Positions 12,806-43,888 of a stretch of DNA of 64,000 bases are shown in pieces. The notes beneath the pieces were generated by a model that was not told the DNA's origin, made no database searches, and was given only the letters and a program-made list of their open reading frames with translations. Source of the DNA: Geodermatophilus nigrescens. GTDB lineage: Bacteria > Actinomycetota > Actinomycetes > Mycobacteriales > Geodermatophilaceae. The position numbers and the translations under genes were made by a program. The first letter of the stretch is position 1; every line of letters begins with the position of its first letter. The stretch covers positions 248,001 through 312,000 of the forward strand of contig NZ_FQVX01000002.1 of NCBI RefSeq assembly GCF_900129495.1, written 5' to 3'.

Positions 12806-12822
12806 CTGGCCTGCGGTTTTCC

Positions 12823-13932: not shown

Positions 13933-14541
13933 GGTCCCTCCCACAGGTGGGTGTTCACTCACCGTCCCACCGAGCGCGGACATCTCCGGCAGGGCGGCAG
14001 GAGTCCTCCTGGTCCTTTCCGGTCGGCCGGACCCAGCAGCATGTGGCACCGGCGGACGCGGCGTGCGGCCGCACCGTGAGCACAGCCCCTCCGTCCATGC
14101 ACGACCTGGCGGTACAGATCGGCGTGGTCGGTGAGCCGCCCGCTCTCCCTCGTGCAGGTCGAGGAGCCGCCGGAGGTCCTGGCGGACGCGGACGGTGAGC
14201 CCACCGTCGTTGAGCACATCGGCCTGCACCGGAAGCTGAAGCGCTCGCGGTCAAGCCCACCCGGCAACGGCAGCGCCTGGCCGCCGGGGCCGGCTCGCTC
14301 CTGTGGCGTTGGAGCTCAGGACGAGTCGCCTGTCGCCGTGGTTCGTCGTCGAGTCACGAAGTGCGCACGTCTCCACCTCCGCAGACCCTCAGTGATCCCA
14401 CGTGCATCGCGAGGGAGGCACGGCGACGGGACGATGTCACCACGCCACACGTCCGGTCACGACGACCCGGCAGGCGAGGCGATCGATCCGAACACCTGCG
14501 CAGCAGCCGCTCGGCCCATGTGAACAGAGGAGTCGCAGGCC
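13933..14541. other. non-coding or degenerate stretch upstream of integrase
   Basis: No convincing gene. Open frames occur on both strands, but their codon use lacks the strong third-position GC of neighbours and none has a ribosome site. On the minus strand a fragment reading GLTVRVRQDLRRLLDLHEGE (about 14215-14156) looks protein-like and may be a gene remnant. Confidence 0.5.
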
Positions 14542-22239: not shown

Positions 22240-22260
22240 GCGCGCCGCGGACCGGGCGGG

Positions 22261-22419
22261 TCAGCCCTCCATCGGGAGCGACGTCCGGTCGAGGAGCACC
22301 TCTCCCAGCGCCACGTCGAAGCGCTGCGCGATCGACTGCAGCCGGTCGGCGGGCGCGTCCTCGTCCTTCGCCGTCACGTACTCCGAGATGAGCTCGAGCA
22401 GGTCGCGTGCTGTCGTCAT
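22261..22419 (-). CDS. 52-residue hypothetical protein
   Basis: An ATG at 22419 opens a frame with strongly GC-biased third positions, starting MTTARDLLELISEYVTAKDE and ending RTSLPMEG. It is acidic and helical. Composition and codon use look genuine. It is convergent with the STAND regulator, 21 nt apart, and may act with it. No family recognised; it could be a small regulator-associated protein. Confidence 0.6.
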   Translation of the reverse strand: MTTARDLLELISEYVTAKDEDAPADRLQSIAQRFDVALGEVLLDRTSLPMEG

Positions 22420-22656
22420 GCTGCGAGCCTGCCCGCGATGCAGCCGGTTCTCAACTCACTCGTCCAAGTCTCGACGCCTCCGTCGAGATCGACCGGACGG
22501 CGCGCGGGACCGCCGCGCACCCCCAGGGCCACGTGTTCCGCGGCGGTCCCGCGCTGGACGGGTACCCGCCGGTGACGCCCCGCCCGGCGACGTCGGTGCC
22601 GGCGTCGCAGCCACCTCGGCGGGACGGACGTCCTGGCGGTCGCGGACGATCCCCCC
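22420..22656. other. intergenic region with an 8-bp hairpin
   Basis: No gene seen. TCTCGACG-cctc-CGTCGAGA (22469-22488) is a perfect inverted repeat 50 nt upstream of the 52-aa ORF and may be an operator or terminator. The hyuA promoter begins at 22657. Confidence 0.5.
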
Positions 22657-22702
22657 TTGACGTGACGAAGCGCACGTCGAAAAATCTACGCATTCGTCAA
22701 AC
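22657..22702 (+). promoter_or_regulatory. hyuA promoter/operator, member of a three-site family
   Basis: TTGACG (-35), then ACGTCGAAAAATC at 22674-22686 and GTCAAAC at 22696-22702. The same order of elements occurs in two minus-strand promoters at 31442-31488 and 35881-35927. The centre is a GTCGA-N4-TCKAC-like inverted repeat lying over the -10 region, so a repressor could block polymerase there. Confidence 0.7.
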
Positions 22703-22750
22703 GGGACGGTGCTCGCCGCCCCGACGCAGGTCCGAGCGAAGGAGCCGACC

Positions 22751-24868
22751 GTGGCCTATGTGATCGGGGTGGACGTCGGGGGGACGTTCACCGACGCCGT
22801 ACTGGACGACGACGCCGGGACGATCATCGCGGCGAAGGCACCCTCGACGCCGCCGGACTACTCCCGCGGCGTGCTCGACGTCCTCGGCGTCCTGGCCGAG
22901 CAGCTCGGCCGCCCGCTGGAGGACGTGCTGACCGACACCCACCACATCGCGCACGGCACGACGTCGTCGCTCAACGCGCTGGTGATGGGGAACGTGCCGC
23001 CGGTCGGCTTCCTCACCACCCGCGGCCACCGCGACTCCATCTACATCATGAACGTCGAGGGCCGGTACCTCGGCAGCTCGCCGCACGAGCTGCAGCACGT
23101 CCTCGGCCAGACCAAGTCGCACGGCCTGCTGCCCAAGCGGCACGCGCTCGAGGTGACCGAGCGCATCGACCGCGACGGCGAGGTCGTCGTCCCGCTCGAC
23201 GAGGACCAGGCACGCGCGGCGATCCGGGCGCTGCTGGACGACGGCCTGCGCGCCATCGCGGTCTCGCTCCTGTGGTCCTTCCGCAACCCGGCGCACGAGC
23301 GGCGCCTGCGCGAGCTGGTCCACGAGATGGACCCGGAGGTGTTCGTCTCCCTCTCCAGCGAGGTCAGCCCGCGCATCCGGGAGTACGCCCGCAACGCGAC
23401 GACGATCATGAGCACCCAGATCGGCCCGGGTCTCCGCGACTACCTGGGCACCCTGGAGGACGGACTGCGCGAGCGCGGGCTGCGCGGGCCGCTGCTGGTC
23501 ATGCAGAGCAACGGCGGCGCGGTGGCCGCCCGGCAGGCGCCGGCCACCGCCATCAGCACCGTGGGATCGGTCCTCACCGGCGGGGTCGTCGGCTCGGTGG
23601 CCCTGGGACAGCAGCTCGGCCACCGCAACGTCATCTCCACCGACGTCGGCGGCACCACCTTCCTCGTCGGCCTGGTCGTCGACGGCGAGCCGGTGCGGGC
23701 GACGACGACGGTCATCAACCACCACCCGGTCAACGTGCCCACCCTCGAGGTGCACGCCATCGGCTCGGGTGGCGGCGCCATCGCCTGGCTCGACGCCGGC
23801 GGCAACCTGCAGGTCGGGCCGCACAGCGCGCAGGCCGTCCCCGGCCCCGCCTGCTACGACCAGGGCGGCACCGAGCCGACCAACACCGACGCCAACCTCG
23901 TGCTCGGCATCCTGCCCGAGCGGGGGTTGCTGGGCGGGCGCAAGCCGCTGTCGCTCGAGCGGGCGCGGGAGGCGATCCGCACCCGCATCGCCGAGCCGCT
24001 GGGCCTGTCGGTGGAGGACGCCGCCGCGGCCATCCACGCCGTGCAGAACGCCCAGACCGGCGACCTGCTGCGCAAGACCGTCGTCGAGGCCGGGCACGAC
24101 CCGCGGGACTTCGTGCTCTACGCCTTCGGTGGTGCCGGCCCCGCCCACTGCGCGGCCTACGCCGCCGAGGTCGGGGTGGCCGAGGTCGTGGTGCCGCTCG
24201 GCCCCGTGGCGTCGGCGTTCTCCGCCTACGGGCTGGCCTCCTCCGACATCGTCGTCGCTGCCGAGTTGTCCGACCCCGCGGCCATGCCGCTGGACCCGGT
24301 GCGTGTGGAGAAGGCCTTCGCCGACCTCGAGACCCAGGTGCGCGAGGCACTGGACCGGCAGGGCGTCCGGTACACCGCCGTCTCCCTCGACCGCGAGATC
24401 GACATGCGTTTCACCATGCAGCTGGCCGAGCTCGCCGTGCCGGTGCCCGGCGGCCCGGTCGACGACGCCGTCGTCGCACAGGCCGGCCGCGCCTTCGAGC
24501 GCCGCTACGCCGAGCTGTACGGCGAGGGCAGCGGCTTCGCCGCGGCCGGCATCCAGGCGATCACCTTCCGCGTGCGCGGCACCGGCGTGCTGCCCTTCTC
24601 CCCCCGCCTGCCGGAGCTGGCGCGGGCGGGGTCGGCGGACCCGTCGGCAGCCCGCACCGGCAGCCGGCCGGTGGACCTGGCCGACGGCGCCGGCCCGGTG
24701 GACACCCCCGTCTACGACTACCGCGCCCTGCGCGCCGGCCACGTCCTGGAGGGCCCGGCGATCGTCGAGGTCCCCACCACCACCGTCGTCGTCCCCGCCG
24801 GGCGCACCGGCACCGTCGACCGGCTCGGCAACCTGTCCATCACGCCCCGTCAGGAGTCCTCCCGATGA
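22751..24868 (+). CDS. HyuA-type ATPase subunit (hydantoinase A / acetone carboxylase beta-like)
   Basis: 705 residues, GTG with AAGGAG upstream. It has the actin-like ATPase fold of the HyuA/AcxA family: phosphate-1 loop GVDVGGTFTDAVL at the N-terminus, HGTTSSLNAL, a second phosphate loop DVGGTTFLVGLV, and YAFGGAGPAHCAAYA. Family members phosphorylate hydantoin, oxoproline, acetone or acetophenone substrates with ATP, together with a B subunit encoded next door (ATGA overlap). The size (705 aa) is close to the acetone carboxylase beta subunit. Whether it hydrolyses a cyclic amide or carboxylates a ketone cannot be decided here. Confidence 0.93.
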   Translation: MAYVIGVDVGGTFTDAVLDDDAGTIIAAKAPSTPPDYSRGVLDVLGVLAEQLGRPLEDVLTDTHHIAHGTTSSLNALVMGNVPPVGFLTTRGHRDSIYIMNVEGRYLGSSPHELQHVLGQTKSHGLLPKRHALEVTERIDRDGEVVVPLDEDQARAAIRALLDDGLRAIAVSLLWSFRNPAHERRLRELVHEMDPEVFVSLSSEVSPRIREYARNATTIMSTQIGPGLRDYLGTLEDGLRERGLRGPLLVMQSNGGAVAARQAPATAISTVGSVLTGGVVGSVALGQQLGHRNVISTDVGGTTFLVGLVVDGEPVRATTTVINHHPVNVPTLEVHAIGSGGGAIAWLDAGGNLQVGPHSAQAVPGPACYDQGGTEPTNTDANLVLGILPERGLLGGRKPLSLERAREAIRTRIAEPLGLSVEDAAAAIHAVQNAQTGDLLRKTVVEAGHDPRDFVLYAFGGAGPAHCAAYAAEVGVAEVVVPLGPVASAFSAYGLASSDIVVAAELSDPAAMPLDPVRVEKAFADLETQVREALDRQGVRYTAVSLDREIDMRFTMQLAELAVPVPGGPVDDAVVAQAGRAFERRYAELYGEGSGFAAAGIQAITFRVRGTGVLPFSPRLPELARAGSADPSAARTGSRPVDLADGAGPVDTPVYDYRALRAGHVLEGPAIVEVPTTTVVVPAGRTGTVDRLGNLSITPRQESSR

Positions 24869-27195
24869 CCATGCCGATCCCCGGCTCCGAGCGGTTCAGC
24901 AGCCGGCCCGTGGACCCGGACGAGCTCGCGGCCTCGCTCCCGGCGTCACTGCCCCTGCACACCGTCAGCCAGGAGCAGATCGACGCCCTGGACCCGCTCA
25001 CCTACGAGGTGGTCCGGCACCGCCTGTGGTCGGTCACCGACGAGATGGGCGAGGCGCTCAAGCGCATGTCCGGGTCGCCGATCGTCACCGACGCCAACGA
25101 CTTCGACTTCGCCATCGGCGACGAGCTCGGCCAGGAGGTGCAGGTCGGGCTCTACAACACGATGCTCGTCGGGGCCGTCGACCTCGCCGTGTACTGGACG
25201 CTGCGGCACCGGGCCGCCAACCCCGGCATCGCCGAGGGCGACATGTTCCTGTGCAACGACCCGTGGGTCGGCGGCGGGCTCCACCAGAACGACGTGATCG
25301 TCTACCAGCCGGTCTTCCACGACGGGCAGCTGTTCGCCTGGACCAGCGCCATCGCCCACGAGCCCGACCTGGGCGGCGTCGGCCTGGGGTCGTTCTCCCC
25401 CAGCGCCACCGACGTCTTCTCCGAGGCGCTGCCCACCCCGCCGGTGAAGGTGGTCCGCGGCTTCCAGCTGCAGGACGACGTCGCCGACCTGTGGGTCCGC
25501 CGCTCCCGGGTGCCCATGCTCGTCGGGCTGGACCTGCGGGCGAAGATCGGCGCCAACTCCATCGGCCGGCAGCGCCTCCTCAGCGTCATCGAGCAGTACG
25601 GCGCCGACACGGTCAAGGCCGTGATGAAGCGGATGATGGCCGACGCCGAGCAGCGGCTGCGCGACAAGCTGCGCCGCCTGCCCGACGGCACGTGGCGGGC
25701 CAGCGGCTACCAGGACCAGTCGCACGCCGGCGACCGCAGCCTGCACCGGATCACCGTGGCCATGACCAAGCGGGACGACCACCTGACGTTCGACTTCACC
25801 GGCACCGGCCCGCAGTCCGGCGTCGTCAACTGCACCTACGCCGGCATGCGCGGCGGCGTCGTGTCGGCGGTGCTGCCGCTGCTCGCCGGGGACATCCCCT
25901 GGGCGGCCGGCGGGCTCATGCGCTGCTTCGACCTGGTGTCCGAGGAGGGCACCCTCAACAACGCGACCTTCCCGGCCGCGGTCAGCCGGGGCCCGATCGG
26001 CCCGGCCTGGCTGACCGGCTCGCTGGTGGCGGAGTGCCTGTCGCAGATGCTCGACCGCTCGGTCGACCACGAGCGCAGCGTGCAGGCGACCTGCTGCGGC
26101 ACCTGGGACACCGCGGTGCTCGCCGGGCTCGACGAGCGCGGCTCCCAGCCGGTGCCCTTCCTCAACCTGCTCATGGAGCCGATGGCCGGCGGTTACGGCG
26201 CCCGCCCGGGCGCCGACGGCATGGACACCGGTGGACTGTTCTGCATCCCGATGGGCCGCATCCCCGACACCGAGATGACCGAGTTCCTCTACCCGCTGCT
26301 GACCCTGTGGCGGCGGGAGGAGCCGGACTCCGGCGGCCCGGGCCGGCACCGCGGCGGTGTCAGCGCGTCGATGGCGGTCACGCCCTACGGCACGAGCGTC
26401 CCGATGGGCCTGGTGCTGGCCTCGGCGGGCAAGTCGGTGGCGCAGAACAACGGCCTCGCCGGCGGTCTGCCGGGCAACACCGGGGTCGAGGTGCTGGCGC
26501 GGGGCGCCGGCATGGCCGAGCGGCTGGCCGCCGGCGAGCTCCCCACGACGCTGGCGGAGGTCGGCGGGCAGCAGGAGTTCGGCGCCTGCTACGCCGAGAG
26601 CCACCTGGCGCCCGGCGAGGTGTTCTACATGCACTGGCAGGGTGGCGGCGGGTACGGCGACCCCCTGCTGCGCGACCCGGAGGCCGTGGCGCGGGACGTC
26701 CGCGAGTACAAGGTCACCGAGCACGGGGCGCAGGAGGTGTACGGCGTCGTCCTCAGCGGTGGGCGGGTCGACCAGGAGGCCACCCGGGCCCGCCGTGAGG
26801 AGCTGCGCGCGGGTCGACGGCACCGGGCAGCGCCGGCCGGGCCCGGGCCGCAGGCGACCGTCGACCTCGCCGGCGCCCGCCGCCTCGACGACAACCTCGT
26901 CGAGGCCCGGCACGACGGAGCGCCGGTGGTGGGCTGCGCCCACTGCGGGCAGGTGCTCGGGGACGCCCGCGCGGAGGGCCGGCTGCGGCTGGCCCGCTTC
27001 GACGGGCCGTCGTCGGCGGCCGGTCCGCAGGTGACGTCGGACCCCGCGCTCTACGTCGACGACGAGGTCGTGTTCCGGCAGTTCTGCTGCCCGGGCTGCT
27101 GGACCGCGGTGTGGTCGGGCGTCGTCCCGGCCGACCACGAGGACCACGCACTCGACCTGGCCCGCCTGCTGACGGCGGCGCCATCGGCCGGCTGA
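24865..27195 (+). CDS. HyuB-type subunit fused to an acetone-carboxylase-gamma-like zinc tail
   Basis: 776 residues, the ATG overlapping the hyuA stop (ATGA). Residues about 40-620 are the HyuB fold; CNDPWVGGGLHQND and AIAHEPDLGG hold the His/Asp residues that bind metal in acetone carboxylase alpha. Beyond about residue 650 there is an extra domain with CAHCG and FCCPGCW, which resembles the four-Cys zinc site of the small gamma subunit of acetone carboxylase. Simple hydantoinase B chains are about 550-600 aa and lack it. The tail argues for an ATP-dependent carboxylase rather than a hydantoinase, but this is inference. Confidence 0.88.
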   Translation: MTMPIPGSERFSSRPVDPDELAASLPASLPLHTVSQEQIDALDPLTYEVVRHRLWSVTDEMGEALKRMSGSPIVTDANDFDFAIGDELGQEVQVGLYNTMLVGAVDLAVYWTLRHRAANPGIAEGDMFLCNDPWVGGGLHQNDVIVYQPVFHDGQLFAWTSAIAHEPDLGGVGLGSFSPSATDVFSEALPTPPVKVVRGFQLQDDVADLWVRRSRVPMLVGLDLRAKIGANSIGRQRLLSVIEQYGADTVKAVMKRMMADAEQRLRDKLRRLPDGTWRASGYQDQSHAGDRSLHRITVAMTKRDDHLTFDFTGTGPQSGVVNCTYAGMRGGVVSAVLPLLAGDIPWAAGGLMRCFDLVSEEGTLNNATFPAAVSRGPIGPAWLTGSLVAECLSQMLDRSVDHERSVQATCCGTWDTAVLAGLDERGSQPVPFLNLLMEPMAGGYGARPGADGMDTGGLFCIPMGRIPDTEMTEFLYPLLTLWRREEPDSGGPGRHRGGVSASMAVTPYGTSVPMGLVLASAGKSVAQNNGLAGGLPGNTGVEVLARGAGMAERLAAGELPTTLAEVGGQQEFGACYAESHLAPGEVFYMHWQGGGGYGDPLLRDPEAVARDVREYKVTEHGAQEVYGVVLSGGRVDQEATRARREELRAGRRHRAAPAGPGPQATVDLAGARRLDDNLVEARHDGAPVVGCAHCGQVLGDARAEGRLRLARFDGPSSAAGPQVTSDPALYVDDEVVFRQFCCPGCWTAVWSGVVPADHEDHALDLARLLTAAPSAG

Positions 27196-27202
27196 CGTCC
27201 GG

Positions 27203-27251
27203 CCGCGGGGCCGTGCGCGTCCGGGGTACCCGGGCGCGCACGGCCCCGCGG
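27203..27251. terminator. 17-bp perfect hairpin after hyuB
   Basis: Perfect arms at 27203-27219 and 27235-27251; the 15-nt loop itself contains CCGGGGTACCCGG. It starts 8 nt after the hyuB stop. No T-tract. Confidence 0.8.
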
Positions 27252-27281
27252 TGTGTGACGGGGGCGGGCGGCACCCGCCAC

Positions 27282-27287
27282 TAGGCT
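27282..27287 (+). promoter_or_regulatory. -10 element for the TetR gene
   Basis: TAGGCT, giving a predicted leader of roughly 105 nt before the GTG at 27399. No matching -35 is clear. Confidence 0.45.
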
Positions 27288-27324
27288 CCCGGCGTCGGGT
27301 CGCGCAGGTGCGGTCCGTACCCGC

Positions 27325-27381
27325 ACGACACCCGCACCCCGACGACACCTGCAGCCGGACGACACTGCGCCCGGACGACGC
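27325..27381 (+). repeat. 17-bp periodic repeats in the tetR leader
   Basis: ACGACAC occurs at 27325, 27342 and 27359, with ACGACGC at 27375, so the spacing is 17, 17 and 16 bp. The intervening bases are also similar (CCCGC, CTGCAGCCGG, TGCGCCCGG). They lie between the -10 and the AGGAGG of the TetR gene. Confidence 0.7.
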
Positions 27382-27398
27382 GGAGGAGGCAGCTGCCG

Positions 27399-28091
27399 GT
27401 GAGCAGCGCACCCGAAGGACGGCCCAACGCCCGGCGCGACCTCGTCGAGGCCCAGATCCTCGAGCAGGCGACCCGGTTGTTCGCCGAACGCGGCTTCGCC
27501 GCCACCAGCCTGCAGGACATCGCCGAGGCCACGGGCCTGACCCGGCCGGCGCTCTACCACTACGTCCGCAACAAGGACGACCTGCTGTCCCGGCTCGTGC
27601 AGGAGCTCACCGAGGGCCCGGCCGAGGAGCTGCACCGCATCAACGCCGACGCCGACCGCCCGCCGCTGGAGCGGCTGCGCGACATGGCCCACGCCGTCGC
27701 GCTGCGGATGGCGCGCTCCCCGGAGCGGTTCCGGCTGCTCATCCGGTCGGAGGCGGAGCTGCCGGAGTCACTCGCCGACGTCTACGCGCGTGGCCGGCGC
27801 CGGGTGCTCCGCGAGTTCACGGCGGTGATCGAGGACGGCATCGCCGCCGGCCGGCTGCGCCCGGTCGACGCCCGTGTCGCCGCCCTCGGCGTCATCGGCA
27901 TGTGCAACTGGGTGGCCTGGTGGCACCGGCCCGGCCAGCAGGACGAGGCGGTGGCCGGGCAGATCGCGGACATGGCCGTCGCCTCACTGGCCGAGGCCGA
28001 CTCCCGGGCCGGGGAGGGCGAGGGCCCGGCGCGCGCACTGTCGCTGCTGCGCCAGGACCTCGACTACCTCGAGCGGCTGCTCGGCGGCTGA
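27399..28091 (+). CDS. TetR-family repressor
   Basis: 230 residues, GTG with AGGAGG upstream. The N-terminal HTH reads SLQDIAEATGLTRPALYHYV (about 36-55), followed by the conserved NKDDLLSRLV. The C-terminal ligand domain contains MCNWVAWWHRPG, a signature of TetR proteins that sense acyl-CoA-like or aromatic ligands. It lies directly after hyuAB and is convergent with the ligase gene. It is the only regulator in the catabolic island and so the best candidate for binding the three shared operators, which would make the pathway ligand-inducible. Confidence 0.92.
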   Translation: MSSAPEGRPNARRDLVEAQILEQATRLFAERGFAATSLQDIAEATGLTRPALYHYVRNKDDLLSRLVQELTEGPAEELHRINADADRPPLERLRDMAHAVALRMARSPERFRLLIRSEAELPESLADVYARGRRRVLREFTAVIEDGIAAGRLRPVDARVAALGVIGMCNWVAWWHRPGQQDEAVAGQIADMAVASLAEADSRAGEGEGPARALSLLRQDLDYLERLLGG

Positions 28092-28109
28092 GATCGGTGG
28101 CCGCCGGCG

Positions 28110-29789
28110 TCAGCCGGGCGGCGGGCCGCCGGCCACCTCGGCCCGCAGGCGCTTCTTGTCCAGCTTGCCGACCTGCGTCCGGGGCAGCTCCGTGCGCCAC
28201 TCCAGCCGTTCGGGCCACTTGTACTTCGCGACGCCCAGCGCCTCGAGGTGCCGCCGGAGCTCGGCGAGGTCCACCGGGTCACCGTCGGCCACGAGCACCG
28301 CGCAGGCCCGCTCGCCCAGCCGCTCGTCGGGCACCGCCACCACCGCGGCGGCCGCGACCGCCGGGTGCCGCACGAGCAGCTGCTCGACCTCCTCGGCGTT
28401 GACCTTCTCGCCGCCGCGGTTGATGACGTCCTTGATCCGGCCCTCGACGGCCAGGTAGCGGCCACCGTCGATGTCCACCAGCCGGGCGAGGTCGCCGGTG
28501 CGGTAGAAGCCGTCGCCGGTGAACGCCCGCGCGTCGTGCTCCGGGGCGGCGAGGTAGCCGCGGATCGTGTAGGGCCCGCGCGCGCAGAGCTCCCCCACCT
28601 CGCCCGGTGGCACCTCGTCCTCGGAGTCCGGCCGCAGGACGCGGACCTCGTCGAGCGGGGACAGCGGCGTCCCGACCGTCTCGTTGCGCGCCCGGCGGGG
28701 CGCGCCGGGGAAGGTGACGGCGAACATCCCCTCCCCCATGCCGAACAGCTGCCCGGTCCACAGGCCGAGCGCCTCGAAGCGGTCGAACAGCTCCGCGCTC
28801 ACCTTCGCCCCGCTCAGGACGACGGTGCGCAGCGTCGGCACGACGGCGGCCAGGCCCGGGTGGTCGATGACGCCGTAGTGGCCGTGCCCGAACAGCACGT
28901 CGGTCACCCCCGCCGCCGCCATGAGCGGCAGGGCCCGGTCCAGGTCGGGAGAGGCCAGGACCAGGGTGCCGCCGACGCTGTGCGGGCCGTGCAGCCCGCA
29001 GACGATGCCGGCGTTGTGCACGACCGGGATGAGGTGGGCGACTCGGCTGGAGGCGTTCCAGCCCCACGCGGAGGCGTAGGCGAGGGCGTTGTACCAGTAC
29101 TCGGCGTGCAGCCGGGGGATCACCTTGGGCACCCCGGTGGTGCCGCCGGACAGCTGGAGGACGGCGACGTCGTCGGGACCGATGCCCGCCTGCACGGCGT
29201 CGACCCGGGCCCGCGCCACCGTGGGGTCGGCGTCCCGGCCCAGGTCCTCCAGGCGGACGGTGCCGGCGTCCGCGGCGGCGCCGACGGTGAGCAGGTGGCG
29301 CAGGGTGGGATGGTCCTGCGCCTGCTCACGGCCGAAGGCGACGAGGTCGAAGCCCCGCGTCCCCGCCTCCACCAGGTGCCCCACCGCGCCGACGAGCCGG
29401 CTGATCTGCGAGATCTCGTGTCCGCGGTGGTGCGCCAGCGCGCAGACCGGCAGCAGGCCGGCCTTCAGGGTGGCGTACCAGGCGAGCACCGTCTCCTGCC
29501 GGTTGGTCACCTGGAACACCACCGGGTCACCGGGGCGCAGCCCCAGCTCGCCCAGCCCGCAGGCGATGAGGTCGGTGCGGGCGTCGAGCTCCGCGTAGGT
29601 GAGCGTGCCCGCGTCGGTGACCAGCGCGACGACCTGCGGGTGTGCGGCGGCGACCCGCTGGAACTCCTGCACCAGGGTCCGGTCGCCCCACAGGCCGGCC
29701 TCCCGGTACCGCCGGACGGCGTCGTCCGGGTACGGGACGACGCCCGCGCGCAGGGTCGAGCGGGGCCGCTCAGGCGCCGGGACGGACAT
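28110..29789 (-). CDS. aryl-acid AMP/CoA ligase (salicylate/2,3-dihydroxybenzoate type)
   Basis: 559 residues, ATG at 29789 with AGGAGAG upstream. ANL superfamily: core motif LQLSGGTTGVPKVIPR, YRTGDLARL, and the hinge plus A8 loop GRIKDVINRGGEKV, with the catalytic Lys in RTQVGKLDKK. INRGGEKV and AEYWYNALAYA resemble EntE/SdgA-type ligases for 2-hydroxy or 2-amino benzoates. The start lies 20 nt inside the end of the monooxygenase gene, so the two are translationally coupled. It likely makes the aryl-CoA or adenylate on which the monooxygenase acts. Confidence 0.9.
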   Translation of the reverse strand: MSVPAPERPRSTLRAGVVPYPDDAVRRYREAGLWGDRTLVQEFQRVAAAHPQVVALVTDAGTLTYAELDARTDLIACGLGELGLRPGDPVVFQVTNRQETVLAWYATLKAGLLPVCALAHHRGHEISQISRLVGAVGHLVEAGTRGFDLVAFGREQAQDHPTLRHLLTVGAAADAGTVRLEDLGRDADPTVARARVDAVQAGIGPDDVAVLQLSGGTTGVPKVIPRLHAEYWYNALAYASAWGWNASSRVAHLIPVVHNAGIVCGLHGPHSVGGTLVLASPDLDRALPLMAAAGVTDVLFGHGHYGVIDHPGLAAVVPTLRTVVLSGAKVSAELFDRFEALGLWTGQLFGMGEGMFAVTFPGAPRRARNETVGTPLSPLDEVRVLRPDSEDEVPPGEVGELCARGPYTIRGYLAAPEHDARAFTGDGFYRTGDLARLVDIDGGRYLAVEGRIKDVINRGGEKVNAEEVEQLLVRHPAVAAAAVVAVPDERLGERACAVLVADGDPVDLAELRRHLEALGVAKYKWPERLEWRTELPRTQVGKLDKKRLRAEVAGGPPPG

Positions 29790-31422
29790 CGGTCTCTCCT
29801 CGGGAGCCGGACAGCACGGGCTGCAGGGTGCGGGGGGAGGCGGCCTCACCGTCGGTGAGGTCGACGAGGTCGGTGCGGCCGCTGACCAGCGCGGCGGCCG
29901 CGTCGGCGCGCAGCTCGGCGGGCACGGAGACGACCGTCAGCAGGCCGGTCACCCGCCGGACCCGCTCGGCGAGGTCGAGGCGGTCGAGCACGGCCTCCCG
30001 CCCGGCCGGGCCGGTGAGCCACAGACCGGCGCACCCGCGGGCGGCCAGCTCGCCGGCGCGCCGGGCCAGCGCGTCCCCCGCCGACGACCACGCGCTGCCG
30101 GGTGGGGCCACGAGCCGGGCCAGGGTGCCGGGCGGGGCGTCGTCGCCGTCGACGACCTCGGGCAGCTCGGCGGGGTCGGCCCGCCGGGAGGCGAGGACCC
30201 GGCCGGCCCGCTCCAGCGGCCGGTCCAGCACCCACTCGTCGAGGCCGGCGGCGGGGAGCCCCTCGGCCGGGGAGCCCGCGTAGTCGGCGAGCGCGCGGGC
30301 GACGACGTCGGGGCTGCTCGTCGCGAAGCGGGACAGCGGCACGTTCCCCGCCCGCGACATGTAGGCCACCATCAGCCGGTCGACCGGCTCGTCGAGCCGG
30401 TCGGGGAAGCTCTCCCACCACAGCTGGCTGCGCCGGGCGAGGCCCTGGAGCCGCTCGACGGCGGGGCGCCGCACCGCCTCGTAGGCGGTGAACGCGGAGG
30501 GCACGTCGCCCGACGCACCCAGGGCGTCGACGAGCGCGATGGCGTCCTCCATGGCCAGCTTGGTCCCCGAGCCGATCGAGTAGTGCGCGGTGTGGGCGGC
30601 GTCGCCGAGCAGCACCACGGTGCCGCTGTGCCACCGTCGCGCGGTGACCCTGCGGAAGCGGAGCCACTGGGTGCGGTTGCCGATGAGAGGGTGACCGCGC
30701 AGCGACGCGGCGAAGACACCCTCGAGGTGGCGCAGGCTGGCCTCGTCGTTGGCGTCCCGCGCCAGGCCCCGCGCGCCGGCGTCCAGGCCGGCCCGCCGCC
30801 AGGTCCGCTCGTCGGTCTCGACGAGGAACGTGCTGCGGTCGTCCTGGTAGGGGTAGGCGTGCGTGACGAAGGTGCCGGCCTCGGTCTCCACCGGCTCGAA
30901 CAGGGCGTGGTCGAGCGCGAAGTCGGTGGCCGCCCACAGGTAGAGGCCTGCGCCCGTCTCCACCGTGGCCCCGAACTCCTCCGCGCGGGCCGTGCGGGTG
31001 GCGCTGTTGACGCCGTCGGCGGCGATCACCAGGTCGGCGTCGAGCTCGTCGGCCCGCACCCGCTCCCCGAACCGCAGGACGACGCCGGACTCCTCGGCGT
31101 GCCGCTGCAGGACGGCGAGCAGCCGCGTCCGCGCGATGCCGATCAGGGCGTCGTTGCCGACCGTGGTGGCCTGCCCGCGCACGCGCATCTGCATGTCGTG
31201 GCGGTGCCCGCCGGCGACGATGTCGCGCAGGCTGGCCGGGTCGGCGGCCTCGAGGTTGCGTTGCGTGCCCGCGGCGAGCCCGACGCCGAAGCCGAAGGTC
31301 TCGTGCGGCACGCCCTGCTCGTGGACGACGACCTCGCACCCCGGCTGCGCGAGCTTGAGCAGCCGGGCGGCGTACAGCCCACCGGGCCCGCCGCCGAGGA
31401 CGGCGACCCTCCTCAGCTCCAC
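29770..31422 (-). CDS. FAD monooxygenase, SdgC-like, with shrunken C-terminal domain
   Basis: 550 residues, GTG behind GGGGAGGTC. The first 390 residues are a class A flavin hydroxylase: dinucleotide loop AVLGGGPGGLYAARLL, DLVIAADGVNS, and GDAAHTAHYSIGSGTKLAMED. The closest recognised relatives are salicylyl-CoA 5-hydroxylase and 2-aminobenzoyl-CoA monooxygenase, which carry a 350-residue old-yellow-enzyme domain behind it. Here only about 130 residues follow. They still contain ARGCAGLWLTG and VSGRTDLVDL, which look like scraps of that domain. The neighbouring ligase supports an aryl-CoA substrate. Confidence 0.87.
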   Translation of the reverse strand: MELRRVAVLGGGPGGLYAARLLKLAQPGCEVVVHEQGVPHETFGFGVGLAAGTQRNLEAADPASLRDIVAGGHRHDMQMRVRGQATTVGNDALIGIARTRLLAVLQRHAEESGVVLRFGERVRADELDADLVIAADGVNSATRTARAEEFGATVETGAGLYLWAATDFALDHALFEPVETEAGTFVTHAYPYQDDRSTFLVETDERTWRRAGLDAGARGLARDANDEASLRHLEGVFAASLRGHPLIGNRTQWLRFRRVTARRWHSGTVVLLGDAAHTAHYSIGSGTKLAMEDAIALVDALGASGDVPSAFTAYEAVRRPAVERLQGLARRSQLWWESFPDRLDEPVDRLMVAYMSRAGNVPLSRFATSSPDVVARALADYAGSPAEGLPAAGLDEWVLDRPLERAGRVLASRRADPAELPEVVDGDDAPPGTLARLVAPPGSAWSSAGDALARRAGELAARGCAGLWLTGPAGREAVLDRLDLAERVRRVTGLLTVVSVPAELRADAAAALVSGRTDLVDLTDGEAASPRTLQPVLSGSRGETDVRPGA

Positions 31423-31441
31423 CCTGACCTCCCCGAGACGT

Positions 31442-31488
31442 GTTGACGCGCAAGTCGAGTATTCGACGTTGCCGATGACACTGTCAAC
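31442..31488 (-). promoter_or_regulatory. promoter/operator of monooxygenase-ligase operon
   Basis: On the minus strand: TTGACA, 18 nt, AATACT (31458-31463), about 30 nt before the GTG. A perfect GTCGA-N4-TCGAC inverted repeat covers the -10, and the 47-nt block is bounded by GTTGAC/GTCAAC. The MFS stop codon lies inside the -35. Same layout as 35881-35927 and 22657-22702. Confidence 0.75.
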
Positions 31489-32818
31489 GCACCGCTCCTG
31501 CCGCCGGCACCGCTGCCTCGGTGGAGCGGACCCGGCCGGCCGCCCGACGCGCGGGCACCAGGGCCGCGGCCACGCCGCCGAGGGCCGCGGGCAGCGCGAA
31601 CGCGTGGAACTGCCACGACAGGCCGAGACCCGCCGCGACCAGCAGCCCGCCGTAGGTCGGGCCGAGGATGGCGCCCACCCGGCCGACGCCGAGCGACATG
31701 CCGAGTCCCGTCGTGCGCACAGCGGCCGGATAGGAGACGGCCACGAAGGCGTTGAGCAGGATCTGCGTGCCGGTGGTGCCGAAGCCGGCCACGGCCACGA
31801 GCAGGTACACCGCCCACGTCGGCGGCGCGAGGCTCAGCAGAGCCAGCGACACCGCCGCCGCCCCGAAGGCGGCGACCGTGACGGGCTTGGCACCCCAGCG
31901 GTCGGCCAGCGCGGAGGCCCCGAGCGCCCCCACGACGGTGCCGCCGTTGAGGACCAGGACGAACGACAGCGAGGACTGCAGGCCGTAGCCGGCGGCGGTC
32001 ATGAGCGCCGGCAGCCACGACGCGACGCCGAAGAGCACCAGCAGGCAGAAGAACGTGGCGACCCAGAACGACACCGTCATCGCGGCGCGCCCGTCCGAGA
32101 ACAGCGCCCGCAGTCCACCGCGGGCCGCCGCGGTCCCTGCCGCGTCCGGACCGGGCGGTACCAGGGGGACGCCGTACCGCGCGGCGACGTGGGCCGCCTC
32201 CTCCCGGCGCCCCGAGGCGAGCAGGAAGGCCGGCGACTCGGGCAGGTACCGCAGCATCAGCGGCAGCACCACGAGCAGCGGCACCGCCCCGGCGGCGAAC
32301 ATGCCCCGGAAGCCGAACGCGGGCACCAGCCAGAGCGCGAGCAGGCCGGCGAGCATGCCACCCACGCCGACGCCCGCGAAGCCCAGCGCCGCGGTCCGGG
32401 TACGCCGGCCCGGGGTGGAGAACTCGACGAGGATGGCCACCGCCGTGGGCATGAGCGCTCCGGCGCCGAGACCGATCAGGAAGCGCGAGACGCCGAAGAC
32501 CTCCGGGGTCGGCGACAGCGCGCACCCCGCCATGGCCAGGGAGAACGTGCAGACGCTGACCAGGATGGTCCGGCGGCGGCCCCACCGGTCCCCGACGGCC
32601 GCCGCGGCCAGCGCACCCACGAGCATGCCGAAGGCTGCCAGCGAGCCGAGGACGCCCACCGCAGGCGCGTCCAGGCCCCACGGCCCGTGGGCGAGCAGGG
32701 CGGGCACGACCGTCCCGTACATCAGGAGGTCGTAGCCCTCGAGGACGAGCGCCAGGAAGCACAGCGCGACGACGGTCGCCGACGCCCCGGTCCGGGGGCT
32801 CGCGGGATGTGCGGACAT
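31484..32818 (-). CDS. MFS transporter, aromatic acid:H+ symporter type
   Basis: 444 residues, ATG with GGAGAAGG upstream. Twelve membrane segments can be picked out. The loop 2-3 motif GDRWGRRRTILVS and the LEGYDLLMYGTVVPALL opening are those of the AAHS group (PcaK/BenK/GenK), which import benzoate-type acids; Asp in the first helix (GYD) is needed in PcaK. The middle loop has RYLPESPAFLL. It lies between the two catabolic operons on the same strand and presumably imports the aromatic acid that the ligase activates. Confidence 0.9.
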   Translation of the reverse strand: MSAHPASPRTGASATVVALCFLALVLEGYDLLMYGTVVPALLAHGPWGLDAPAVGVLGSLAAFGMLVGALAAAAVGDRWGRRRTILVSVCTFSLAMAGCALSPTPEVFGVSRFLIGLGAGALMPTAVAILVEFSTPGRRTRTAALGFAGVGVGGMLAGLLALWLVPAFGFRGMFAAGAVPLLVVLPLMLRYLPESPAFLLASGRREEAAHVAARYGVPLVPPGPDAAGTAAARGGLRALFSDGRAAMTVSFWVATFFCLLVLFGVASWLPALMTAAGYGLQSSLSFVLVLNGGTVVGALGASALADRWGAKPVTVAAFGAAAVSLALLSLAPPTWAVYLLVAVAGFGTTGTQILLNAFVAVSYPAAVRTTGLGMSLGVGRVGAILGPTYGGLLVAAGLGLSWQFHAFALPAALGGVAAALVPARRAAGRVRSTEAAVPAAGAVR

Positions 32819-32928
32819 GCCTTCTCCATCGAAGACGGGGCCCGCGACTGCCGGGCCGGTGCAGGGGGACGCGCCGCCTGCCCGGCGAGGCCGGGGGCGG
32901 GAGGGCGGGCCGGGTGGGACCGCCGGGC

Positions 32929-34167
32929 TCAGCGGGAGAAGCGCTCCTCGAGCCAGCCGCCGATCTCCGCGGCGGCCAGGCTCGCGCCGGTCGGTTCGCC
33001 GTCGGCGACGGCACCGCCGAAGTGGGTGCCGCGCACGGACCGCACGGTGAGGTCGTCGGCGCCGAGCGCGGCGGTCATGGCGTCGACGTCACGCGGGAAG
33101 CAGGCCTGGTCGCCGGTCAGCTCGACCAGCAGCGTGCGCGCCGACACGTCCGGGGCGCAGCGGAGGAAGTCGGCACGGGTGGTGGTCGCCGACCAGGTGG
33201 ACAGCCAGGCGTCGGGGGTGCTGAGCCGGCCGAAGCCGAGCAGGCCGTAGTTGGTCAGGTCGGGCCGCCGGCCGAACAGTGACCCGTACGGCCGGTCGTT
33301 GGGATCCAGGGAGAGGTCGACCGAGCGCAGGTCGGCGTCGGTGCGGAACACCGTGAGCAACCGAGGCGCCAGGGCGGCACGCCGGTCGCGCGGGTCCTCC
33401 GAGCTCCGCGACCGCCGGCGGGCTGCGTCCGCCTCGTCCGCCAGCCCGCGGGCGACTGCGTCCAGGCGCGCGATCCGCGCCGCCTGCGCCTCCCGGTAGC
33501 GGGCTACGAACTCCGGCGCGTAGCTCGAGGTCTCCCCGGGTGGCGCGAAGCCGTTGTCCGGGTCGTAGGGGTCGAGGGCCGGGTCGACCGACAGGGGGTC
33601 GCGCTCGTCGGTGACGGAGGGGTCGACGAGCCGGGCCAGCAGCGCACCCTGGCCGGGGTGAGGCGCCATGAAGACCACCCCGTCAGGAACCGGGAGGTCG
33701 GCGTCGGCCAGCGGCACCGGCCGTCCGGTGGGGGTTGCGGAGATCCGCCCGGCCGGCGCCAGACCGGCTTGCTGGGCGTACAGCGCGAACAGCGTCCCGC
33801 CGCCGGAGTGGCCGAGGACGACGACGTCGTGGAAGCCCGCCCGGCGCAGGAAGACCTGGCCGGCGCCGATGTCGAGGACCGTCTGCTCGTGCACCAGCGC
33901 CAGGTCGTTGTTGACCGACCGGCTGCCCTGCGTCCACACCGCGAAGCCGCGGGCCAGGAGCTCGGGGACGAGCACGTGGTGGGACACGTCCTGCCGGGGG
34001 TGGGCGAGGCAGACGACGGTGCGCGCGCCGGGGACGGTCCGCAGGAGCCCGGTCACGGTCGCGCCGTCGGCGGTCCGCAGCTCGTGCGCGGTGGTGACGG
34101 TGGCGGCCGGGGGCTCGGCCGCGGCGATCCAGCGCCCGGCCCCGAGCCGCTCGGCGGTGCCGGTCAC
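32929..34167 (-). CDS. alpha/beta hydrolase
   Basis: 412 residues from a GTG overlapping the preceding gene's stop (GTGA). A strand-elbow motif VVLGHSGGGTLF places the nucleophile at S121. The acid and base are probably in the C-terminal part (GDQACFPRDVD and RGTHFGG). The lid (about 190-300) is large and Arg/Asp-rich. In context, after a ring-cleaving type VOC protein and beside a maleate isomerase, it may hydrolyse a ring-cleavage product to maleate plus a second acid. This is inference; the family alone gives no substrate. Confidence 0.85.
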   Translation of the reverse strand: MTGTAERLGAGRWIAAAEPPAATVTTAHELRTADGATVTGLLRTVPGARTVVCLAHPRQDVSHHVLVPELLARGFAVWTQGSRSVNNDLALVHEQTVLDIGAGQVFLRRAGFHDVVVLGHSGGGTLFALYAQQAGLAPAGRISATPTGRPVPLADADLPVPDGVVFMAPHPGQGALLARLVDPSVTDERDPLSVDPALDPYDPDNGFAPPGETSSYAPEFVARYREAQAARIARLDAVARGLADEADAARRRSRSSEDPRDRRAALAPRLLTVFRTDADLRSVDLSLDPNDRPYGSLFGRRPDLTNYGLLGFGRLSTPDAWLSTWSATTTRADFLRCAPDVSARTLLVELTGDQACFPRDVDAMTAALGADDLTVRSVRGTHFGGAVADGEPTGASLAAAEIGGWLEERFSR

Positions 34168-34409
34168 ACCGGCTCCACGCGGAGCGCGTCCTTGTCCTGC
34201 TGCGTCACGCGAGCACCGCGCAACCCGGCGACGCAGGAGTACCAGACGGCGTGCCGGCACCCGGTGGCCCGGCGGTCGACGACGATCGCGCCCGGTGCGC
34301 TGATCTCGAAGTAGGGCCCCACCCGCGCGACGGTGACGTCGGGTCCCTGCCCGGCCACCGTGGCCACGGAGACGTTCTCCGGGACGTCGAGGACGTAGAA
34401 CGTGGTCAC
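34164..34409 (-). CDS. 81-residue conserved-looking hypothetical protein
   Basis: GTG at 34409, overlapping the VOC gene stop (GTGA), and its own stop overlaps the hydrolase GTG. So it is locked into the operon on both sides. The sequence begins VTTFYVLDVPENVSVATVAG and is predicted to be all-beta; CRHAVWYSCV near the middle has two Cys and a Trp. No family recognised. Its place among catabolic enzymes suggests a small enzyme, a subunit or a chaperone of the VOC dioxygenase. Confidence 0.75.
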   Translation of the reverse strand: MTTFYVLDVPENVSVATVAGQGPDVTVARVGPYFEISAPGAIVVDRRATGCRHAVWYSCVAGLRGARVTQQDKDALRVEPV

Positions 34410-35077
34410 GGCCGCGCCACCTCCGGGACCGACGCCTGTTCGGCGGTGGCCCGCGCGGCGTGCTGCTCCTCCCACGCCGCGGCCCGCTCGACGATCAGCT
34501 CGGCCTTGCGGGTGAGCAGCGCCGCCATGCTGGGGTCAGGCCCGGACACGACGTCGACGAGCGCGTCGATCGTCAGGGCCGCGTCGAGGTCCTCCTGCGG
34601 GGTCACCGGCCTCAGTGCCCGCGTGATCTCGATCATGTAGCCGTTCGGGTCGTGCGTGTAGATCGACTCGATCGTCTCGTGCTGGATCTGCATCTCCACC
34701 GGCCACTCGCTGCCGTCCAGCCGCCGGCGGTACTCGAGGAGGTCCTCCTCGCTGTCGACGTGGATGGCGAGGTGGCGGGACCGGATGAAGTAGACCGGGA
34801 CGTCCTCGGCGAAGCGGGAGTACGCGTCGCCCTGGGGGCCGCCTCCGAACGGCTCGAGGCCGAAGTAGTAGAAGAAGGCGAGGCGGTCGCCGTTGCCGAT
34901 GTCGAAGAAGAAGTGGATGAAGTCCGGGTGCCGCTCCGGGCCCCAGCCGGCGGCACAGATGGAGTGGACGACGGGGAAGCCCAGGACGTCACGGTAGAAG
35001 CGCACCGTGCCGGCGGGGTCGAAGGTCGGGTAGGCGACGTGGTCGACGCCGCGGACCCGGTGCGGGAGTTCGCTCAC
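34406..35077 (-). CDS. VOC-family extradiol-dioxygenase-like protein
   Basis: 223 residues, GTG with AGGAGG upstream. Two beta-alpha-beta-beta-beta modules of the vicinal-oxygen-chelate fold are visible. The expected metal triad can be placed at H13 (VDHVAYP), H106 (HLAIHVDS) and E150 (GYMIEITRAL). The helical tail (about 160-223) is unusual and may dimerise. VOC enzymes include ring-cleaving dioxygenases, isomerases and glyoxalases. In an operon with a maleate isomerase, cleavage of a dihydroxylated ring is the most economical guess. Confidence 0.82.
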   Translation of the reverse strand: MSELPHRVRGVDHVAYPTFDPAGTVRFYRDVLGFPVVHSICAAGWGPERHPDFIHFFFDIGNGDRLAFFYYFGLEPFGGGPQGDAYSRFAEDVPVYFIRSRHLAIHVDSEEDLLEYRRRLDGSEWPVEMQIQHETIESIYTHDPNGYMIEITRALRPVTPQEDLDAALTIDALVDVVSGPDPSMAALLTRKAELIVERAAAWEEQHAARATAEQASVPEVARP

Positions 35078-35108
35078 GGGATCCTCCTCGGGTTCGGCTG
35101 GGGTGCGG

Positions 35109-35864
35109 TCAGGCGGGGACGGGGACGCGGTCGGCCCGCAGGAGGCTGCCGGCACCGGGGAGGTCGACGGGCAGACCGAGGGCGCGCAGCAGGCTGTAGG
35201 CGCCGGCGGTGGCGGCCGACAGCACCGGGATGCCGAACTCCTGCTCGGCCGGCTCGACCAGGGACAGGGACGGCATCTGCACGCAGCAGGACAGGACGAG
35301 GGCGTCGACAGCGGACAGGTCCAGCTCGCGGGCCGCTGCCATCACCCGGTCGCCGGGGATGCAGCCCACCTCGGCGTTGTCGGCCACCTCGAGCGCCCGC
35401 CAGTCGGCGACCGTCAGACCCTCGGCCTCCAGGTAGGCGACCACCTGCTCCGCGAGCGGCCGCGTGTAGGGCATCACCAGGGCGACCCGACGGGCCCCCA
35501 GACCGCGCAGGGCCTCGACCAGCGCGCCGGCGCTGGAGCGCACGCGGGCCTCCGAGCCCCCGGTCGCCAGCTGCTCGGCCACGGCGGCCTCGACGCGCTG
35601 GTGCTCACCGGGGCCGCCGGCCATGAGCGCCACCAGGCACGCGTAGAGGATCGCCTCGGGACCTGCGTCACCGAGCTCGAGGACGCAGCGCTCGCGCTGG
35701 GCGTTCATCGCCCGCAGCTGGGCGGGACTGACCGCCGTCATGCGCATCCGGCTGGAGTGGAACGAGAACGACGCGTCGGGGTGCCGGGCCAGCAGCGCCG
35801 GCATCTCGGTCTCCACGGTCACGTTCGAGCTCGGCACGACGAGCCCGATGCGGTGCACGGCCAC
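35109..35864 (-). CDS. maleate cis-trans isomerase (Asp/Glu racemase superfamily)
   Basis: 251 residues, GTG with GGGAGG upstream. Maleate isomerase converts maleate to fumarate without cofactor using two Cys. Here they are C76 (LYACLVAL) and C194 (LSCCVQMPSL), the same numbers as reported for the Nocardia enzyme. VVPSSNVTVETEMP at the N-terminus binds carboxylate. Arylmalonate decarboxylase is a related alternative, but the Cys pair favours isomerase. It is first in the operon behind the 35881-35927 promoter, so maleate is a likely intermediate of the pathway. Confidence 0.88.
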   Translation of the reverse strand: MAVHRIGLVVPSSNVTVETEMPALLARHPDASFSFHSSRMRMTAVSPAQLRAMNAQRERCVLELGDAGPEAILYACLVALMAGGPGEHQRVEAAVAEQLATGGSEARVRSSAGALVEALRGLGARRVALVMPYTRPLAEQVVAYLEAEGLTVADWRALEVADNAEVGCIPGDRVMAAARELDLSAVDALVLSCCVQMPSLSLVEPAEQEFGIPVLSAATAGAYSLLRALGLPVDLPGAGSLLRADRVPVPA

Positions 35865-35880
35865 ACGGTCCTCCCGGGTT

Positions 35881-35927
35881 GTTGACGCTGACGACGATTA
35901 TTCGACGTCAGCGACGACAGTGTCAAC
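35881..35927 (-). promoter_or_regulatory. promoter/operator of maleate-isomerase operon
   Basis: On the minus strand: TTGACA, 18 nt, AATAAT (35897-35902), about 32 nt before the GTG. GCTGACG/CGTCAGC is a perfect inverted repeat around the centre and GTTGAC/GTCAAC bound the 47-nt block. About 70% identical to the block at 31442-31488. Confidence 0.75.
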
Positions 35928-35943
35928 CCGGTCGGACGACCTC

Positions 35944-36474
35944 TCAGGCGCTCGGTGCGACGGCCCTCCGGCGGGCGCGGGCGAGCAGGAGCGCGGCGGC
36001 TCCCCCGGCGGCGGCGAGCACGATCGGCAGGCCGGCGCCGTTGCCGTCCGCGGGCATCTGGGTCGACGGCGGGCACGCCGCGTCGCCCTGGCGCGCCGCC
36101 AGGTTCGTGCTGCCCAGGTGCCACATGGGTCCGCCGCCGCCGGTGACGGTCACCGCGAACACGCCCCGCCGGAGGCCGGGCTCGAAGGTCGTGGGCTGCG
36201 GCGTGCCGTACCGGGTCGGCGTGACCTGGTTGGCCGGGCCGACCGGGATGGTCACGGTCGTGCCGGTCCGGTTGTCGTAGCCGAAGACCGCCGTCCAGCT
36301 GCCGTCGGCGCGGGTGAGGACGCAGTCCAGGACGGGGACGACGTCGGGCGGGTCGGAGCGGTTGGGCGCCGCGGCGGCGGCACCGGGAACCAGCGCGACG
36401 AGGACGGCGATCGCCGCCGTCGCCAGCAGGCGGACCGGGGTCCGCGAGGAGGTCCTGCGTCCGTGCCGCGGCAT
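35944..36474 (-). CDS. secreted, membrane-anchored hypothetical protein
   Basis: 176 residues, ATG at 36474. A signal peptide (basic MPRHGRRTSSRTPVR, hydrophobic LLATAAIAVLVALVPG, cleavage near AAAAAPN) is followed by an about 100-residue beta-rich domain with two Cys that may pair, then a C-terminal hydrophobic helix (GLPIVLAAAGGAAALLLA) and a short Arg tail. The layout is of a cell-surface protein anchored by its C-terminus. No enzyme family recognised and no obvious link to its neighbours. Confidence 0.75.
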   Translation of the reverse strand: MPRHGRRTSSRTPVRLLATAAIAVLVALVPGAAAAAPNRSDPPDVVPVLDCVLTRADGSWTAVFGYDNRTGTTVTIPVGPANQVTPTRYGTPQPTTFEPGLRRGVFAVTVTGGGGPMWHLGSTNLAARQGDAACPPSTQMPADGNGAGLPIVLAAAGGAAALLLARARRRAVAPSA

Positions 36475-43797: not shown

Positions 43798-43888
43798 CCG
43801 TCGGCCTCCGTCGGCTCCGGTCGTGAGCTGGGTCACGTGCTCGCCGGCGACGCTAGGGCGGCCGCTCCGCCGTGCACCCCCTCCGGCC

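Follow-up and report, generated by a model that had tools for sequence, protein, structure and literature searches.

The 64,000-nucleotide stretch of Geodermatophilus nigrescens contig NZ_FQVX01000002.1 analysed here (positions 248,001 to 312,000, hereafter the window) carries a cluster of putative aromatic catabolic genes around a gene for a TetR-family regulator. On the plus strand, the order is hyuA, hyuB, a hairpin, and tetR. On the minus strand, the genes for a maleate isomerase, a VOC protein, a hydrolase, and an MFS transporter are followed, behind a promoter of their own, by those for a flavin adenine dinucleotide (FAD) monooxygenase and an aryl ligase (Table 1). Promoters of one build precede hyuA, the monooxygenase-ligase genes, and the maleate-isomerase operon, and the gene map agrees with an earlier note on this DNA that had placed them there. 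These promoters share one architecture, are rare in the genome, are conserved upstream of orthologous genes across Actinobacteria, and are linked to one TetR gene. The reading put forward, with a probability of roughly 0.8, is that they are sigma-70-type promoters with one common operator, that TetR dimers repress them, that a pathway intermediate is the inducer, and, more tentatively, that the pathway leads to fumarate.

Table 1. Predicted promoters, operators, and genes of the cluster; positions count from the first letter of the window and array scores are out of 24
Feature	Position	Strand	Description
hyuAB promoter	22657..22702	+	-35 TTGACG 22657-22662, -10 AAAAAT 22680-22685
hyuAB operator	22665-22700	+	half-sites ACGAAG, CGTCGA, TCTACG, CGTCAA; array score 21/24
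Monooxygenase-ligase promoter	31442..31488	-	-35 TTGACA 31487-31482, -10 AATACT 31463-31458
Monooxygenase-ligase operator	31443-31478	-	half-sites TCATCG, CGTCGA, TCGACT, CGTCAA; score 22/24
Maleate-isomerase operon promoter	35881..35927	-	-35 TTGACA 35926-35921, -10 AATAAT 35902-35897
Maleate-isomerase operator	35882-35917	-	half-sites TCGTCG, CGTCGA, TCGTCG, CGTCAA; score 24/24
Fourth operator array	22451..22486	-	score 21/24; 31 nt before small-ORF ATG
Small open reading frame (ORF), 52 aa	22264..22419	-	overlooked in the earlier note
hyuA	22751..24868	+	hydantoinase/oxoprolinase A family; like caprolactamase alpha and acetophenone carboxylase, both below curated cut-offs
hyuB	24883..27195	+	hydantoinase B family; cysteine-rich C-terminal extension
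Hairpin, 24-bp GC stem	27202..27252	+	between hyuB and tetR; z -5.66 for 27190-27300
tetR	27399..28091	+	TetR-family regulator; helix-turn-helix (HTH) SLQDIAEATGLTRPALYHYV
Aryl-acid AMP/coenzyme A (CoA) ligase	28110..29849	-	2,3-dihydroxybenzoyl-AMP ligase-like, below cut-off
FAD monooxygenase	29770..31422	-	N-terminal part like salicylyl-CoA 5-hydroxylase / VioD
MFS transporter	31484..32818	-	nearest to the aromatic acid:H+ symport family
Conserved alpha/beta-hydrolase-like protein	32929..34260	-	GHSGGG motif by eye
VOC (glyoxalase-fold) protein	34406..35077	-	ring-cleavage dioxygenase candidate
Maleate cis-trans isomerase	35109..35864	-	very close to 'putative maleate isomerase' 2XEC/2XED

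The earlier note had described the three sites as TTGAC, a common centre, and GTCAA at nearly equal spacing, and direct reading bears this out. Counted from the G of the central GTCGA (position 0), TTGAC stands at -19 at hyuA and at -20 at the other two sites, and GTCAA stands at +20 in all three. As had been stated, the monooxygenase site has a perfect central GTCGA-N4-TCGAC, and the hyuA and isomerase sites each deviate from it by one base. The 13-base core, written as the pattern ACGTCGAANANTC, is identical at 11 of 13 positions across the three sites. It has three matches in the 4,738,773-base genome, all at these places, and its reversed pattern has none in the whole genome. A sigma-70 scan of both strands of the 13.8-kb cluster (22240-36000) gives exactly these three promoters, against a shuffle mean of 0.2. 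A pattern with the -35 spacing of the two minus-strand sites, searched genome-wide with up to three mismatches, finds only those two. A looser 26-bp pattern with at most one mismatch finds six places in this genome, namely the three promoters, the fourth array of Table 1, and two elsewhere; when two mismatches are allowed, its 49 matches compare with 14 for the reversed control, and most matches at that level are thus background. The likeness of the three promoters is not due to chance, and the occurrence of the motif at many unrelated promoters, which would have spoken against a regulon, is not seen, as all three core matches in the genome lie in the cluster operons. The -35 box of the monooxygenase promoter (31482-31487, minus strand) contains the stop codon of the MFS gene.

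Distant relatives of the cluster were collected by a scan with the VOC protein over one genome per species (84,980 species), and the best 80 of 135 confirmed loci were kept, two of them being Klenkia loci that reappear below. The genera include Rhodococcus, Gordonia, Williamsia, Nocardia, Mycolicibacterium, Kitasatospora, Amycolatopsis, Pseudonocardia, Klenkia, and others. By tblastn at more than 60 bits, the hydrolase is present in 80 loci, tetR in 78, the ligase in 77, the isomerase in 74, the monooxygenase in 73, hyuB in 59, hyuA in 57, and the MFS gene in 18. A promoter pattern consisting of the -35 box, GTC[GA]A, and part of the -10 box was run on the 1.6 Mb of these loci and has 77 matches. 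A core gene follows shortly downstream of 75 of them, which come from 42 loci (isomerase 38, hyuA 32, monooxygenase 5), and 2 lie elsewhere; the loci are related, and these counts are thus not independent. First-order Markov controls give 1, 2, 0, 1, and 0 matches, and the reversed sequence gives none.

When the 75 sites are aligned on GTCGA, conservation outside the search pattern is found at -11 to -6, at +10 to +14, and at +19 to +24. These blocks correspond to a first half-site, to most of a third, and to a fourth, and the 4-bp spacers and flanks are much less conserved than the half-sites. When the sites are scanned register by register with YGTCRA and its complement, only four positions have a mean above 4.3 of 6: -1 forward, +9 reverse, +19 forward, and -19 reverse, the last being the -35 box; half-site 1, at -11 reverse, has a mean of 4.21, below 4.3 and next highest on its strand. 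The resulting operator consensus is TYGWCR-N4-YGTCRA-N4-TYGWCR-N4-YGTMRA, in which four 6-bp half-sites alternate in orientation, follow each other at steps of exactly 10 bp, and together span 36 bp. Arrays scoring at least 22 of 24 on both strands of the 80 loci number 110 at 10-bp spacing and 1, 0, 1, 0, 0, 0, and 0 at spacings of 7, 8, 9, 11, 12, 13, and 14 bp, a comparison that favours 10 bp in that the consensus was built from the loci on which it was counted. At a score of at least 21, there are 134 arrays in 70 loci, of which 122 have a core gene within 300 bp downstream, 3 fall inside the monooxygenase match, and 9 are located elsewhere. Under an order-4 Markov model of the window, scores of at least 21 arise 5 times per 1.9 million positions, and the window itself has four places with a score of at least 20.

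The operator thus defined amounts to two 16-bp palindromes in tandem, offset by 20 bp along the same helix face, that span the -35/-10 spacer, the -10 box, and then probably the start site. The central inverted repeat described in the earlier note is present, and it is only part of this operator; the conservation of half-sites 1 and 4 as well led to rejection of a single central dyad as the entire operator. The outer TTGAC and GTCAA were likewise rejected as the arms of an operator inverted repeat. TTGAC stands 19 bases before the GTCGA anchor in 63 sites and 20 bases before it in 12, and the half-sites keep their register; TTGAC is the -35 box and not an operator arm. Moreover, TTGAC is absent from the 12 bp upstream of 18 of the 19 arrays assigned to the VOC gene, which makes the array an operator in its own right that is separable from the -35 box. 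The central spacers of these 18 VOC-gene arrays are AAGA (8), ACTG (7), AATA (2), and ACTA (1) rather than ATAM, and some of these arrays may contain a weak -10 box.

Two further features were seen at the promoters of these loci. For 19 of 32 loci (e.g. L025, L026, and L041), a 14-bp palindrome, GTGA-N6-TCAC, presumably of the CRP/GlxR type, lies at a fixed place upstream of the -35 box of the hyuA promoter. It starts 41-43 bp before GTCGA in these 19 loci and 27-29 bp downstream of the anchor in 5 more, and it has only 39 matches in the 1.6 Mb. The window has one match at 43823 and none near these promoters. In L056, a Mycobacterium metagenome-assembled genome, an array near 14575, one of the 9 counted as elsewhere, precedes a secretory-lipase gene with tetR behind it (13058-14527 and 12158-12997, minus strand), and this lipase gene seems to have joined the regulon. 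Similar sites are found at the matching place in L052 (an array) and L053 (weaker matrix matches).

Among 112 genomes of the family, the core followed by GTCAA, with at most one mismatch, occurs in three: this genome with three sites, and Klenkia brasiliensis and K. taihuensis with two sites each. A monooxygenase orthologue of more than 70 percent identity is found in the same three genomes only, and the other monooxygenase matches listed at E 1e-60 or better have at most 44 percent identity. A monooxygenase search of plasmids gave no match at 1e-100. The gene order in Klenkia differs, in that the monooxygenase and isomerase genes diverge from each other and the hydrolase gene is followed by the ligase gene. 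The short divergent region between isomerase and monooxygenase holds two promoters of like build, one per direction, and hyuA has its own. The Klenkia monooxygenase site ends in GTCGAAC instead of GTCAAC and for that reason escaped the pattern search. In a class sample of 394 genomes drawn evenly, five have a VOC orthologue at 1e-60, and all five have arrays of at least 20 around that gene (four, loci L127-L130, were checked in a stretch of about 3.6 kb each, and the fifth is the window). The strict 26-bp pattern YGTCRAATAMTNGWCRNNNNYGTMAA has exact matches in two of the 394 genomes, both among these five. The rarity of the motif and its co-occurrence with the cluster support the earlier claim of one regulon that includes hyuAB, and a fourth unit of it had been overlooked.

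This fourth unit is the 52-aa ORF with its array, which scores like the hyuA array and has no recognisable -35 or -10 box inside it. Within the family, the ORF was found only in the three of 112 genomes that have the cluster. The Klenkia orthologues have about 60 percent identity with one in-frame codon gap, and an equivalent array stands 31 nt before the ORF ATG at both loci, although the surrounding DNA has diverged. In Klenkia this array is about 1.2 kb from the hyuA operator; since the ORF and the 31-nt distance are kept in both species despite that separation, the array is taken as the operator of the small ORF, and a chance occurrence or a looping operator of hyuA was rejected. The ORF has no Pfam family above cut-off and no match at E below 1 in the remaining loci of the 80-locus set. 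Between the window and K. brasiliensis, 8 synonymous and 21 non-synonymous codon changes are counted, and, as this gives no sign of strong purifying selection, translation of the ORF is rated as likely only.

The protein encoded by tetR has the TetR_N HTH domain (PF00440, 1.7e-16) and the C-terminal domain PF17932 (9.6e-23). Its closest solved relatives by sequence carry general TetR titles only and are followed by Mce3R, KstR2, DarR, and MbdR. The tetR gene is missing from two of the 80 loci, L062 and L045, the latter cut by a contig end, and it is the sole regulator among the mapped core genes of the loci. The palindromic arrays overlap the promoter elements of the genes presumed to be controlled, and the recognition helix is strongly conserved in loci with a CGTCGA-type array. 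For the 78 loci with tetR, helix and operator were compared under an array definition neutral at half-site position 1, with 63 loci having an array and 15 having none. The third residue of GLTRPALYHYV is T in 53 loci, with a mean C fraction of 0.84 at that position, and S in 9 loci, with 0.23 (1 locus was not aligned). The loci with the S helix thus favour T over C at half-site position 1 (Mann-Whitney p 7e-6, with relatedness ignored). Judged from sequence, the TetR protein is the likely repressor and the best candidate regulator. Autoregulation of tetR in this genome was rejected, since no array was found upstream of the gene and the hairpin separates it from hyuB; with no array before it, tetR is probably expressed independently.

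Several observations weigh against a regulon under this repressor, as do the limits already given for the locus counts, the spacing comparison, and the helix test. No promoter-pattern match lies upstream of a core gene in 38 of the 80 loci, where looser arrays are needed, and 10 loci have no array at a score of at least 21. Several isomerase promoters of Tsukamurella and Dietzia are without the downstream half-sites. An isomerase promoter of this kind is present in L083, L086, L098, and L104, in which neither hyuA nor hyuB was found. In the window, no array of at least 20 stands upstream of tetR. In Pseudonocardia dioxanivorans (L062), there is no tetR within 20.6 kb, yet weaker operator-like sites are kept. 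The last case also favours the possibility that another, unlinked regulator binds the array and that the adjoining TetR is incidental. Alternating half-sites at 10-bp steps suit TetR-family dimers; no other regulator gene stands among the mapped core genes, which include tetR in 78 of 80 loci, occurrence of the motif follows that of the cluster in the family and class genomes, and a half-site base varies with the TetR recognition helix. An unlinked regulator is therefore unlikely.

In the mechanism proposed for the linked repressor, two dimers of the TetR protein would bind the 36-bp array and block RNA polymerase. Two side-by-side dimers are suggested by the four alternating half-sites at one-turn steps, and the bound protein should block the polymerase because the array covers the -10 box and about the start site. 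In the presence of the substrate, the repressor would be released by an early intermediate of the pathway, for which the aryl-CoA product of the ligase is the most likely candidate, and hyuAB, the monooxygenase-ligase genes, the maleate-isomerase operon, and the small ORF would be switched on together. An inducer similar to aryl-CoA is suggested by the precedent of MbdR. According to PMC4424350, MbdR of Azoarcus sp. CIB is a TetR-family regulator of 3-methylbenzoate catabolism at several promoters, its operators lie over the -10 box and the start site, and its inducer is the aryl-CoA produced by the first enzyme. The present cluster is alike in having a local TetR-family repressor candidate, a putative aromatic pathway, several promoters, and operators over the -10 and start region. 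In contrast, that source gives an MbdR operator of ATAC-N10-GTAT, an 18-bp palindrome (several are suggested in P3R), in an anaerobic pathway of another phylum, whereas four half-sites of another sequence are found in this actinobacterial cluster. Two TetR-family dimers per operator are also proposed for QacR and CprB in PMC4150764, where the two CprB dimers bind a 22-bp site from opposite sides and QacR is described as analogous. In the present operator, half-sites at one helical turn over 36 bp would put the dimers on the same face, and the QacR/CprB arrangement is thus not the one predicted.

The TetR protein might instead be an activator or a dual regulator rather than a plain repressor, given that the VOC-gene arrays stand without a -35 box and that activation layers may exist where a CRP-type site lies upstream of hyuA promoters in many loci. 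The main arrays, however, lie over the -10 box and the start region, positions at which a bound protein obstructs polymerase, and MbdR, a TetR regulator of aromatic catabolism, represses from such positions (PMC4424350), so that activation is quite unlikely. Descent rather than selection could also explain the likeness if the promoters were recent copies moved with the genes, as their nearly identical cores might suggest. The hyuA site has an orthologous site in both Klenkia species and is nearer to these, sharing CCCCTTGACGTGACGAAG and GTCGAAAAATCTACG with them, than to its own neighbours; distant genera again have one site for the isomerase and another for hyuA, so the sites are old and kept, and recent copying is very unlikely. 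The idea that the three are simply strong housekeeping sigma-70 promoters of a GC-rich genome without a common regulator, for which their good match to the -35 and -10 consensus could be cited, is largely refuted by conservation in half-sites outside the boxes, the VOC-gene arrays without TTGAC, the restriction of the core to the three cluster sites, and a -35 box that floats by 1 bp against a rigid 10-bp register.

The enzymes of the cluster can be read as a pathway with different degrees of certainty. The isomerase matches 2XEC at E 6.1e-123 over residues 1-246 of 251, nearly its full length, and from this similarity its identity as a maleate isomerase is firm; the source organism of 2XEC/2XED is presumably Nocardia farcinica. 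The VOC protein has its lowest E-value in the PDB with 9u42, titled homogentisate 1,2-dioxygenase, which is a weak profile match (3.4e-9). In Foldseek, 9u42 again gives the lowest E (2.3e-9) but superposes poorly (template modelling (TM) scores 0.31/0.39, root-mean-square deviation 17.8), and a better superposition is obtained with methylmalonyl-CoA epimerases (TM to target up to 0.66). The monooxygenase scores 324.7 bits against the NCBIfam model of salicylyl-CoA 5-hydroxylase, below the cut-off of 1078 and over the N-terminal part only, and thus falls short of that family. The hydrolase-like protein has no Pfam match. The start of hyuA is probably GTG 22751 and not the first ORF start at 22709, because AAGGAG, read by eye, precedes it. 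For HyuAB, a lactamase and a ketone carboxylase are both candidate readings. The C-terminal region of HyuB, of about 120 aa, is cysteine-rich with two CxxC motifs and has no significant family or structure match. The very stable hairpin behind hyuB is a probable terminator, and a hairpin-like repeat is visible by eye in the corresponding Klenkia gap.

The combined similarities of isomerase, VOC protein, monooxygenase, and ligase suggest a tentative pathway in which an aryl acid would be converted to an aryl-CoA and then to a para-diol, followed by ring cleavage to a maleyl compound, hydrolysis to maleate, and isomerization to fumarate. HyuAB would be an added entry or side step, which is likely because 20 of the 80 loci, some of which are truncated by a locus or contig end, gave no match to either hyuA or hyuB. 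Ten of these 20 are L073, L083, L086, L088, L090, L095, L098, L101, L102, and L104, from Tsukamurella, Dietzia, Nocardia, Pseudonocardia, Actinomadura, and Actinomycetospora. The gentisate and homogentisate pathways also proceed by para-diol ring cleavage to a maleyl compound with a fumarate exit. In contrast to these, the present cluster has a CoA ligase, a VOC-type protein, and a maleate isomerase, together with HyuAB in most loci.

A literature search turned up no paper on the gene neighbourhood or regulator of the 2XEC/2XED isomerase, and, based in part on titles and the starts of abstracts, no such cluster or pathway. It is possible, at a tentative level, that this is an undescribed actinobacterial catabolic regulon in which a TetR protein acting as two side-by-side dimers would control a likewise undescribed CoA-dependent para-diol pathway to maleate and fumarate and a new 52-aa protein. 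A local TetR regulon is an ordinary and known kind of regulation; the present one is real, widely conserved in many related soil bacteria, and has a precisely definable operator. With it, the scattered orphan genes for HyuAB, the monooxygenase, the ligase, the VOC protein, the hydrolase, the isomerase, and the 52-aa ORF would become one co-regulated pathway, and the repressor could be used as an assay for finding the substrate of that pathway and as a biosensor.

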